From the NCBI RefSeq assembly GCF_022637455.1, contig NZ_CP093341.1:1364001-1428000 (forward strand): a stretch of DNA of 64,000 bases. Direction: 5' to 3'. This DNA is from Lysobacter sp. S4-A87. Lineage in GTDB: Bacteria; Pseudomonadota; Gammaproteobacteria; Xanthomonadales; Xanthomonadaceae. Below are positions 5,977 to 8,304 of the stretch, piece by piece; position 1 is the first letter of the stretch, and each line of letters begins with the position of its first letter. The notes beneath the pieces are model-generated. The model had not been told where the DNA came from and did no database searches. It saw nothing but the letters and a program-made list of their open reading frames with translations. The position numbers and the translations under genes were made by a program.

Positions 5977-7878
5977 TTATTGAACGCCCTCACTGCGCAA
6001 ACGCGAGGCGAATTCGGAGACGGTCATCGTCCCGAGGTCCTCCCCTCCCCGCGTGCGCACAGAAATCTGGCCGTTTTCCTTCTCGCGGTCACCGACCACG
6101 AGCAGGTAAGGCACGCGCTGCAGGGTATGCTCGCGAATCTTATAGCCGATCTTTTCGTTGCGCAAATCGGCATGGACCCGGAATCCTTGATTTGCAAGGG
6201 TTTTCCTGACCTCGTCCACGTAATCGCCCTGGGCGTCGGTGATGTTCATCACCACCGCCTGGATCGGGGCCAGCCAGGCCGGGAACTGGCCGGCGTGGTG
6301 CTCGATCAGGATGCCGATGAAGCGCTCCATCGAGCCGACGATGGCCCGGTGCAGCATCACCGGGTGGCGGCGCTGGCTGCTTTCGTCGACATATTCGGCG
6401 CCCAGGCGGCCCGGCATCATGAAATCGACCTGCATGGTGCCCAGCTGCCAGGTCCGGCCGATGGCGTCCTTGAGGTGGTATTCGATCTTGGGGCCGTAGA
6501 AGGCGCCCTCGCCGGGCAGCTCCTCCCACTGCACGCCGGCCGCGCTCAGGGCCGAGCGCAGGGCGTTCTCGGCCTTGTCCCAGGTGGCGTCGTCGCCCAG
6601 GCGCTTGTCCGGGCGCAGGGCGATCTTGATCTGGATCTCACTGAAGCCGAAGACGTCGTAGACGGCCAGGGCCTGCTGGTGGAAGGCGCTGACCTCGGCC
6701 TCGATCTGGTCCTCGGTGCAGAAGATGTGGCCGTCGTCCTGGGTGAAGCCGCGCACCCGCAGGATGCCGTGCAGCGCGCCGGACGGCTCGTTGCGGTGGC
6801 AGGCGCCGAACTCGCCGTAGCGGATCGGCAGGTCGCGGTAGCTGTGCAGGCCGTGGTTGAACACCTGCACGTGGCCCGGGCAGTTCATCGGCTTGAGCGC
6901 GTAGGTGCGCTTCTCCGACTCGGTGAAGAACATGTTTTCCTGGTAGTTGTCCCAGTGGCCGGACTTCTGCCACAGCGACACGTCGAGGATCTGCGGGCAG
7001 CGCACTTCCTGGTAGCCGCTGTCGCGGTAGACCTTGCGCATGTACTGCTCGACGACCTGCCAGATCGACCAGCCCTTGGGATGCCAGAAGATCAGGCCCG
7101 GGGCCTCTTCCTGCAGGTGGAACAGGTCCTGCTGCTTGGCGATCTTGCGGTGGTCGCGCTTCTCGGCTTCCTCCAGCTGGGTCAGGTAGGCCTTGAGGTC
7201 CTTGTCGTTGAGCCAGGCGGTGCCGTAGATGCGGCTGAGCATCTGGTTGTTGGAATCGCCGCGCCAGTAGGCGCCGGCGACCTTCATCAGCTTGAACGCG
7301 CGCAGCTTGTCGGTGGACGGCACGTGCGGGCCGCGGCACAGGTCGGTGAACTCGCCCTGGCTGTACAGCGACAGGTCTTCGCTGGCCGGGATCGACTCGA
7401 TGATCTCGGCCTTGTAGGCCTCGCCGATGCCGCGGAAGAAGGCCACGGCGTCGTCGCGCGACTTGACGCTGCGCGAAACAGGCTGGGCTTCTTTCACAAT
7501 CTTCTGCATTTCCGCCTCGATCGCCGGCAGGTCTTCCGGCGTGAACGGGCGCTCGTAGGCGAAGTCGTAATAGAAGCCGTTGTCGATGACCGGGCCGATG
7601 GTGACCTGCGCGCCCGGATACAGGCGCTGCACGGCCTGCGCCAGCAGGTGCGCGGTGGAGTGGCGCAGCACCTCGAGGGCGTCGGGGTGCTTTTCGGTGA
7701 CGATCTCGAGCGAGACGTCGTGGTCGATGCGGAAGCTGGAGTCGACGAGCTTGCCGTCGACCTTGCCGGCCAGGGCAGCCTTGGCCAGGCCGGCGCCGAT
7801 CGAGGCGGCGACCTCGCCGACGGACACGGGCTGTTCGAATTCGCGGCGGCTGCCGTCAGGAAGGGTGATTGCGATCAT
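5977..7878 (-). CDS. thrS: Threonine--tRNA ligase
   Basis: 633 residues, normal length. In order: TGS domain (about 1-62), the second editing domain with [11 protein letters not shown] (about 74-84), class II catalytic core with Zn-binding MNCPGH near 335 and motif 3, and an anticodon-binding domain (about 530-633). It charges tRNA-Thr and edits Ser-tRNA-Thr. The start ATG at 7878 ([16 protein letters not shown]) matches the family. First gene of the operon; its 5' leader carries a probable threonine attenuator. Confidence 0.98.
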
Positions 7879-7962
7879 GAGAGGGCGTCTTGCTGGCGCG
7901 CGGGTGCGCGGCTTGGCGGTTGGAGATCGTCGGAACCGGCAACAAACCGGGCTTCCGGAAAT

Positions 7963-7985
7963 GAAAAACGGCGCCGCGGCGCCGT
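7963..7985 (-). terminator. Attenuator hairpin in the thrS leader
   Basis: On the minus strand ACGGCGCCGCGGCGCCGT (7985-7968) is a perfect inverted repeat, followed directly by TTTTTC. It lies 22 bases after the stop of the Thr-rich leader peptide and about 85 bases before the thrS ATG, the position of an intrinsic attenuator. Confidence 0.8.
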
Positions 7986-8007
7986 CCTGCAGGGGCGTCG
8001 TCGGCGT

Positions 8008-8034
8008 TCAGCGATGGGAAGTGGTAGTGCTCAT
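8008..8034 (-). CDS. Threonine-rich leader peptide of thrS (MSTTTSHR)
   Basis: An eight-codon frame, ATG AGC ACT ACC ACT TCC CAT CGC TGA, encodes MSTTTSHR with three consecutive Thr codons. It lies between a promoter-like sequence (8112-8140) and a GC-rich hairpin with a U run (7985-7963), upstream of thrS. By analogy with thrL and pheL, ribosome stalling at the Thr codons when charged tRNA-Thr is low would favour read-through into thrS. The ribosome site is weak (GAG seven to nine bases upstream). I see no clear alternative antiterminator stem by eye. The function is inferred from position and codon content. Confidence 0.6.
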   Translation of the reverse strand: MSTTTSHR

Positions 8035-8111
8035 GTCGCACGCTCGGCCGGCGGTTTTGCCGCGGGCCACCTCTGGATCCTGCCTCCGGCCGATGCCGGA
8101 GCTAGGGTGAA

Positions 8112-8140
8112 ATAGTTGGGTCTTCGCGCGGCCAAGTCAA
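8112..8140 (-). promoter_or_regulatory. Candidate sigma-70 promoter of thrS operon
   Basis: On the minus strand TTGACT (8140-8135) and AACTAT (8117-8112) are 17 bp apart, about 75 bases before the leader-peptide ATG. The -35 is good and the -10 is weak. Confidence 0.45.
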
Positions 8141-8184
8141 CGCCGGCGCGCGGGCCGGCCTGCGGGCGTCGAAAATACGGGCCC

Positions 8185-8220
8185 CGAAAAGCAGAACGGC
8201 CGGGCAGAGCCCGGCCGTTC
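8185..8220 (-). terminator. Terminator after tRNA-Val
   Basis: Strong GC stem (GAACGGCCGGGC / GCCCGGCCGTTC, 8194-8220) directly downstream of tRNA-Val on the minus strand, followed by TGCTTTTCGG. Nearly the same hairpin recurs at 21185-21211 and 27253-27276. Confidence 0.75.
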
Positions 8221-8229
8221 GCAACATAT

Positions 8230-8304
8230 TGGTGGGCGGTACAGGGTTCGAACCTGTGACCCCTACCATGTCAAGGTAGTGCTCTACCGCTGAGCTAACC
8301 GCCC
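8230..8304 (-). tRNA. tRNA-Val (anticodon GAC)
   Basis: Minus-strand cloverleaf of 75 nt with encoded CCA (8232-8230). Acceptor GGGCGGT pairs with ACCGCCC, the D arm has AGCTCAGCGGTAGAGC, the anticodon GAC is at 8272-8270, and the T arm has GGTTCGAACC. Confidence 0.97.

Follow-up and report, generated by a model that had tools for sequence, protein, structure and literature searches.

Ribosome-mediated attenuators control amino-acid operons and the gamma-proteobacterial pheST genes, and the leaders of trp, his and thr typically contain a protector (1:2) stem. Control of thrS itself is known in other forms: in the Firmicutes T-box riboswitches sense uncharged tRNA-Thr, bind the tRNA directly and act through a terminator, and the E. 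coli gene is the textbook example of regulation through a translational operator. Its ribosome site is bipartite, with a hairpin between the two parts that ThrRS recognises (PMC3858243). The accessible text of PMC1262725 names attenuators of trpS, leuS and pheST and does not name thrS, and that of PMC2965389 names E. coli ThrRS only in passing. A threonine-dependent leader peptide has been proposed before thrS in Streptomyces lividans, with a hairpin that is not followed by a uridine-rich run, and therefore placing thrS under a Thr leader is not a new idea; that leader belongs to another phylum, encodes an 18-residue peptide with two Thr and has a leaderless start, and the available portion of the report gives no comparative evidence for an antiterminator (PMC8079986).

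The window analysed here is a stretch of 64,000 nucleotides from Lysobacter sp. S4-A87, in which thrS lies on the minus strand (5977–7878, from the open reading frame list), followed by what we take from the translations to be infC, rpmI, rplT, pheS and pheT. Read 5′ to 3′ on the minus strand, where the features of the leader region are located, the region consists of a promoter-like pair, AGAGGUGG, a hairpin, GUGCGAC, a leader frame, ACGGCGCCGCGGCGCCGTTTTT (7985–7964) and thrS. The pair at 8140–8112 is a candidate promoter, promoter-like by sequence, with a −35 TTGACT (8140–8135), a 17-base spacer and a −10 AACTAT (8117–8112), from which a transcription start near 8105 would be expected; the −35 TTGACTTG is kept in all 12 genus members, and the −10 is variable (AACTAT, AACACT, AAGACT). 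A 5′-end hairpin found by folding (CTCCGGC-ATCG-GCCGGAG, 8084–8101) lies outside the conserved block. Next come an SD-like AGGU (8069–8072), which may be the upstream part of a split ribosome-binding site; a hairpin, H1 (8045–8069), that separates the SD-like AGG from the leader AUG; and the motif GUGYGAC, GUGCGAC in the window, directly 5′ of the AUG (8035–8041). The leader frame (8008–8034) reads ATG AGC ACT ACC ACT TCC CAT CGC TGA and encodes the eight codons of MSTTTSHR, with the Thr codons ACU ACC ACU at codons 3–5. Beyond it is an intrinsic terminator, GGACGGCGC-CGCG-GCGCCGTTT with its U-tract at 7968–7964 (7964–7987 overall), within which ACGGCGCCGCGGCGCCGT forms an uninterrupted 18-base palindrome at 7985–7968; from the T-run, TTTTT at 7968–7964, to the thrS ATG (7878) there are 85 bases. 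The original prediction had proposed the promoter-like pair, the MSTTTSHR frame, the inverted repeat with TTTTT and the 85-base gap, and each of these lies where it had been placed.

Chance occurrence of these elements was gauged with 20,000 dinucleotide shuffles of 7879–8140. Eighteen of them contained an ATG frame of 5–20 codons that includes three Thr codons in a row, 18 contained a 7-bp hairpin with T5, and none contained both. We regard conservation, described below, as stronger evidence that the leader block is real.

Some features further along the operon are recorded here for their own sake. The start of infC is apparently AUC (5908–5906), 8 bases 3′ of a GGAG; non-AUG starts are known for IF-3 genes. 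The gap between rplT and pheS contains a strong, terminator-like hairpin, CATGGGGAAGG-GCGCAAGT-CCTTCCCCATG followed by TTTCGTTTT (4461–4423, minus strand), and REP-like repeats, CGTCATTCCGGCGAAAGCCGGAATCC with the inverted partner CCCGGCTTTCGCCGGGATGACG (4386–4259). No Phe-rich leader frame resembling E. coli pheM was seen on reading between rplT and pheS.

The family sample comprised 12 genus and 149 sampled family genomes, 155 genomes together, from which 151 thrS upstream regions were read. A ThrS search gave a match in all 12 genus genomes (at 92–99% identity outside the window's own) and in every one of the 149 family genomes sampled, the match being partial in a few; G018, G025, G035 and G076 are not among the 151 because the match lacked a ThrS start, that in G035 being merely a weak partial one. 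By a strict parse the leader block is found in 132 of the 151 Lysobacteraceae thrS leaders, and a looser pattern finds it in 140, with a different leader in five and neither in six. The strict parse missed 19 leaders, among which L009, L123, L131, L157, L160, L162 and L164 carry the block by eye. The original prediction had staked itself on conservation of the Thr codons and the hairpin in related genomes; both are kept across the family, and the −35 is kept in the genus.

A covariance model was built from H1 and the start block, so that the members used to build it match by construction. In the window's own genome it gives one strong match, the thrS leader itself (E 1.4e-16); the next has an E-value of 0.12 (150 of 6157 first-look candidates scored), and a second strong copy was rejected on that ground. 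Four genomes have two matches, the second of which (E 0.001–0.01) was likewise not accepted as another copy. At the order level the block is present in at least 242 of 397 genomes, a lower bound because the filters were strict, and in 54 of 98 genera; one of the 242 belongs to family f184 and the rest to f1 and f2. At the class level there are matches in 6 of 369 genomes, five of which are in the order; the sixth (in genome G261, E 0.0042) is weak and, once 501 bases of it had been read, was put down to chance. Of the 80 named ThrS loci the model matches 16, including those of Dyella and Rhodanobacter (two of the 80, L074 and L079, match without a start and were excluded from leader counts), and it matches 0 of 33 loci that are betaproteobacterial by title.

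The leader peptides are strongly constrained in their Thr codons. Codon 3 is Thr in 131 of the 132 family leaders (ACT in 129, ACC in one and ACA in one), codon 4 in 120 and codon 5 in 60; at least two Thr are present in 120 peptides, one in 11 and none in one. The use of ACU at codon 3 is not explained by codon bias, because ACT is rare in the window, accounting for 8 of 248 Thr codons in seven genes, and its presence in 129 of 132 leaders is perhaps tuned to the tRNA-Thr(GGU) isoacceptor. ORF lengths are 18, 21, 24, 27 and 30 bases in 1, 7, 18, 104 and 2 leaders, respectively, and therefore every ORF (132/132) ends by AUG+30, just 5′ of the antiterminator arm described below. A short ORF with cognate Thr codons is the control element expected of a ribosome-mediated attenuator.

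Between the ORF and thrS a terminator is found in the window and, by script, in 114 of the 132 family leaders; a hairpin with U-tract is scripted in 11 of the 12 genus members and seen by eye in the twelfth, L009. An antiterminator stem, which could not be identified by eye when the leader was first described, was found in the hairpin spanning 7972–8006, whose 5′ arm, the bases just 3′ of the UGA (8006–7992), pairs with the 5′ arm and loop of the terminator (7987–7972). The two structures are mutually exclusive, the terminator 5′ arm being common to both, and the antiterminator arm co-varies with the terminator. Tests of this pairing used 110 leaders (104 distinct), 22 of the 132 being omitted: 18 without a scripted terminator, three with too weak a one, and L197, which was mis-parsed. 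Each arm paired with its own terminator gives a mean of −14.66 kcal/mol, compared to −13.16 kcal/mol when partners are permuted among species, a procedure that keeps relatedness and in which GC-rich sequence makes the permuted pairs strong too, and none of 5000 permutations was as low. When a 10-base window is moved along AUG+1 to +52, the strongest pairing falls at AUG+31 to +42; only windows covering AUG+29 to +44 have a clear excess (−0.7 to −1.6 kcal/mol, with −0.2 to +0.5 in the others; 22 windows). Examples of co-variation seen by eye are CGAGGC with GCGCCCUCG in many leaders, AAUUGGC with GCCAAU in L158, and GCCGACGC with GCGCUUCGGC in L128. The arm keeps its position at AUG+33 in 22 leaders with ORFs shorter than 27 bases, though the stop has moved, and therefore the conserved quantity is the spacing from the start and the Thr codons.

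Folding of the leader RNA for alternative stems, which the original prediction had called for, yields a choice between antiterminator and terminator that is set by the position of a masked ribosome. When the window RNA is masked to AUG+22, corresponding to a ribosome on the Thr codons, the antiterminator (−19.1 kcal/mol) beats and precedes the terminator (−15.1); when it is masked to AUG+37, corresponding to a ribosome on the UGA, the antiterminator is lost and the terminator forms. Across the 110 leaders, equilibrium folding with the ribosome at codon 4 gives the antiterminator in 76 and the terminator in 33, and folding with the ribosome at the stop gives the terminator in 95 and the antiterminator in 17. 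The outcome of masking hinges on the ribosome edge that is assumed: for 27-base ORFs, the share of leaders in which the arm is weakened by 5 kcal/mol or more is 62% with an edge of +12 and 86% with +15, and for 24-base ORFs it is 21% and 64%, respectively. The eight leaders with 18- or 21-base ORFs depart from the model in ribosome position, in that all seven with 21-base ORFs keep the antiterminator in foldings with the ribosome at the stop, and in the one 18-base ORF the footprint of a ribosome at the stop falls short of the arm.

We consider it highly probable, in line with the original prediction, that the thrS leader senses charged tRNA-Thr by ribosome-mediated transcription attenuation, and the operon is very likely turned up when charged tRNA-Thr runs short. 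By computation, the frame, its Thr codons, the antiterminator, the terminator and their geometry are all conserved; leader translation, ribosome stalling, the promoter used, and how strongly and in which direction the operon responds are what we infer. Transcription would begin near 8105 and a ribosome would load on the leader frame, probably by way of the candidate split site made up of AGGU, H1 and GUGYGAC-AUG. With tRNA-Thr charged, the ribosome would read MSTTTSHR and rest at the UGA with its front edge over the first part of the arm, so that, with the arm covered, the terminator would form and transcription would end before thrS. When charged tRNA-Thr is scarce the ribosome would stall at ACU ACC (codons 3–4) with its front edge near AUG+20, leaving the arm from AUG+29 to +43 free to form the antiterminator before the 3′ arm of the terminator is made, and RNA polymerase would read on through thrS into the downstream genes. 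That IF-3, L35 and L20 would be affected as well follows from gene order only.

The state of the leader with no ribosome on it bears on a variant of this scheme. Without a ribosome, equilibrium folding gives the terminator in 66 of 110 leaders and the antiterminator in 32, and the full-length window RNA folds to the terminator at equilibrium; with the transcript extending just past the loop, the antiterminator is found in 65 of 110. No protector (1:2) stem showing clear co-variation with the arm was found in windows from −60 to +34 (differences of −0.47 to +0.36 kcal/mol), and a candidate in the window's genus, GCGUGCGA of the GUGCGA region paired with UCGC-UGA-ACGC, is no better than shuffled sequences across the family; we do not count such a stem as obligatory for the attenuator class. 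The leader might be a switch with two inputs that lacks a general protector stem. The hairpin-split ribosome site and the GUGYGAC-AUG block would turn leader initiation itself into a second, separately sensed step, with ribosomal protein S1, ThrRS or free 30S subunits as conceivable mediators. Failed initiation would in that case induce thrS-infC-rplT, unlike trp or his leaders, which it shuts off, and the operon, with its genes for IF-3 and ribosomal proteins, would be responsive not only to Thr-tRNA but also to initiation capacity. We view this extension as doubtful.

It is improbable, to our judgement, that the Thr frame is a real sensor whose output runs through Rho, RNA decay or thrS translation and not through the intrinsic terminator. 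Such an output would accommodate the 18 of 132 leaders that lack a scripted terminator, 16 of which retain adjacent Thr codons and five of which resemble by eye the named Xanthomonas leader L042, and the Streptomyces thrS Thr leader is also reported without a clear U-tract (PMC8079986). It does not account for the hairpin and U-tract of the other 114 leaders, including those of the genus, nor for an arm that co-varies with that hairpin. Two of the 18, L120 and L137, have a hairpin with a short U-run. As a separate observation, the U-tract is absent after the hairpin region in L174, L171, L172, L179 and L186 (e.g. GCACCGGC..GCCGGUGC), and in L174 the Thr codons are gone too (MSPPIAHR), which looks like joint decay.

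The attenuation scheme assigns the segment upstream of the leader frame to ribosome loading, and this segment is itself highly conserved. In a hand-picked alignment of 40 leaders (three named loci and 37 of the 151 family leaders), none of the 40 departs from the GG of AGG, from GUG-GAC-AUG or from the C of ACU, the A of AGG is present in at least 90%, and every column of GUGYGAC before the AUG other than Y is invariant. H1 is paired in 80.7% of cells and has double changes in all nine of its pairs, the middle pair being unpaired in 23 of 40 leaders; there are 39 double-change cells, compared to 12.9 after shuffling, the covariation is 0.330 compared to 0.132, and none of 500 shuffles was as good. 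The signal drops sharply when H1 is slid by one column. AGGU, H1 and GUGYGAC-AUG may constitute a split ribosome site of the leader frame, and their conservation seems to exceed what attenuation alone needs; pairing of GUGYGAC with 16S rRNA, and H1 as an RNA-polymerase pause hairpin, are ideas that we have considered by thought only. A GTG start at the conserved AGGUG was rejected, its distance to the ATG not always being a multiple of three (it is in frame in L002 and not in L007).

The placing of H1, like that of the hairpin in the E. coli split site, also raises the reading that thrS is governed by an E. coli-type translational operator, in which ThrRS would bind anticodon-arm mimics before thrS and block the ribosome; the window has one mimic-like hairpin, CCGG-UUUGUUG-CCGG at 7950–7936, with a UGU anticodon as in tRNA-Thr(UGU). 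However, that hairpin is not kept in relatives, only 5 of 110 leaders have a mimic in the stretch from terminator to thrS (shuffles predict 1.4), these are at differing places, and there are none in 132 leader regions. No conserved anticodon mimic was found at H1, whose loops have no constant NGU by reading, and on these two counts H1 was rejected as a mimic for ThrRS. Moreover, ThrRS bound at H1 would be expected to lower leader translation and raise thrS, the wrong sign for autorepression. We therefore hold operator control to be highly improbable here.

A tRNA-Val(GAC) gene identified by ARAGORN (8230–8304, minus strand) lies about 200 bases upstream of the frame and outside the proposed switch, and the hairpin might merely terminate its transcript with the short frame being accidental. 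By reading, the tRNA has a hairpin of its own downstream, GAACGGCCGGGC-TCT-GCCCGGCCGTTC at 8220–8194, with the promoter-like pair in between; a tRNA 3′ end occurs within 500 bases of thrS in 54 of 151 leaders by a simple pattern that may miss some, compared to 132–140 with the block; and codon 3 is near-invariant, all of which makes this account scarcely credible.

At gathering thresholds Rfam reports only two tRNAs in the whole window, and at 7870–8150 nothing comes near threshold, the best sub-threshold hit being isrK at 13.7 bits against 50; no T-box covariance model matches at the leader, and neither the Lysobacterales nor the betaproteobacterial leader type has an Rfam match in the sequences searched. 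That the ligand is a different one, sensed by a riboswitch, T-box or protein-bound leader in which the Thr codons are incidental, would suit the strong conservation of H1 and GUGYGAC, but with no Rfam family above threshold, a rare ACU kept at codon 3 and Thr peptides before thrS in betaproteobacteria too, we give it next to no chance.

The betaproteobacterial leaders share with those of the Lysobacterales the layout of a Thr-rich peptide, a terminator and a co-varying arm; the peptides differ. This layout, with the complementary arm near the stop, is seen in 20 of the 33 thrS loci (L049–L053, L055–L059, L063, L065, L066, L068, L072, L078, L080, L081, L089 and L090, picked by hand). Their arms co-vary with their own terminators (−15.9 compared to −12.8 when permuted, 0 of 5000 permutations as low; 18 distinct of the 20), with pairs such as UCAAGG/CCUUGG in Ralstonia, UCGAGG/CCUUGG in Cupriavidus and CGAGCC/GGCUCG in Vogesella. 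ACUAC is present in 15 of the 20, and the peptides include MTPRTTT.., MTPRTLTETTSERR and MFKRTTTTR... In the Burkholderia types the stop lies within CGAC-GCUA-GUCG, which is a possible protector stem.

Yet another conserved leader replaces the block in L146, L147, L153, L155 and L156 of the family and in L028, L044 and L048. It has the form GUAGUUCGAACGAACACGAUCACC-AUG-ACG-CG.., with peptides such as MTRNGIHR, MTRTGLLN and MTRTGYP in which Thr is at codon 2. These leaders also have a terminator of their own, a small hairpin, and two distant arms that match each other (e.g. CCAGAG/CUCUGG) and seem by eye to co-vary.

With classical attenuators the Lysobacterales leader shares a short peptide rich in the cognate residue, an intrinsic terminator, an exclusive antiterminator and matching output genes. 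It differs from them in that its target is thrS, no family-wide protector stem was found, a co-varying hairpin parts the SD-like site from the AUG, and the arm is spaced from the AUG and not from the stop. The E. coli operator concerns the same gene and also involves a bipartite site with a hairpin, but there the site is that of thrS itself and its hairpin is bound by ThrRS (PMC3858243), whereas the candidate split site here precedes a leader peptide and has no conserved anticodon mimic. T-box thrS leaders differ in binding the tRNA directly. A search of open PubMed Central gave, among the titles listed, none on a thrS leader in Lysobacterales or betaproteobacteria, and among the papers listed no account was found of either of these two systems, of their antiterminators or of the H1 block. 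Novelty is not certain, because Vitreschak in 2004 and Lopatovskaya in 2010, who reportedly described attenuation of amino-acid and aminoacyl-tRNA operons, may list thrS.

These results indicate that in the Lysobacteraceae, in related Rhodanobacteraceae and, with other leaders, in many betaproteobacteria, thrS and its translation operon are under transcription attenuation. The regulatory logic of one gene would thus have been exchanged, and a covariance model is available with which to annotate the leader. Its geometry, a peptide of 5–9 codons with one near-invariant rare codon and a fixed distance between AUG and antiterminator, is open to simple tests.
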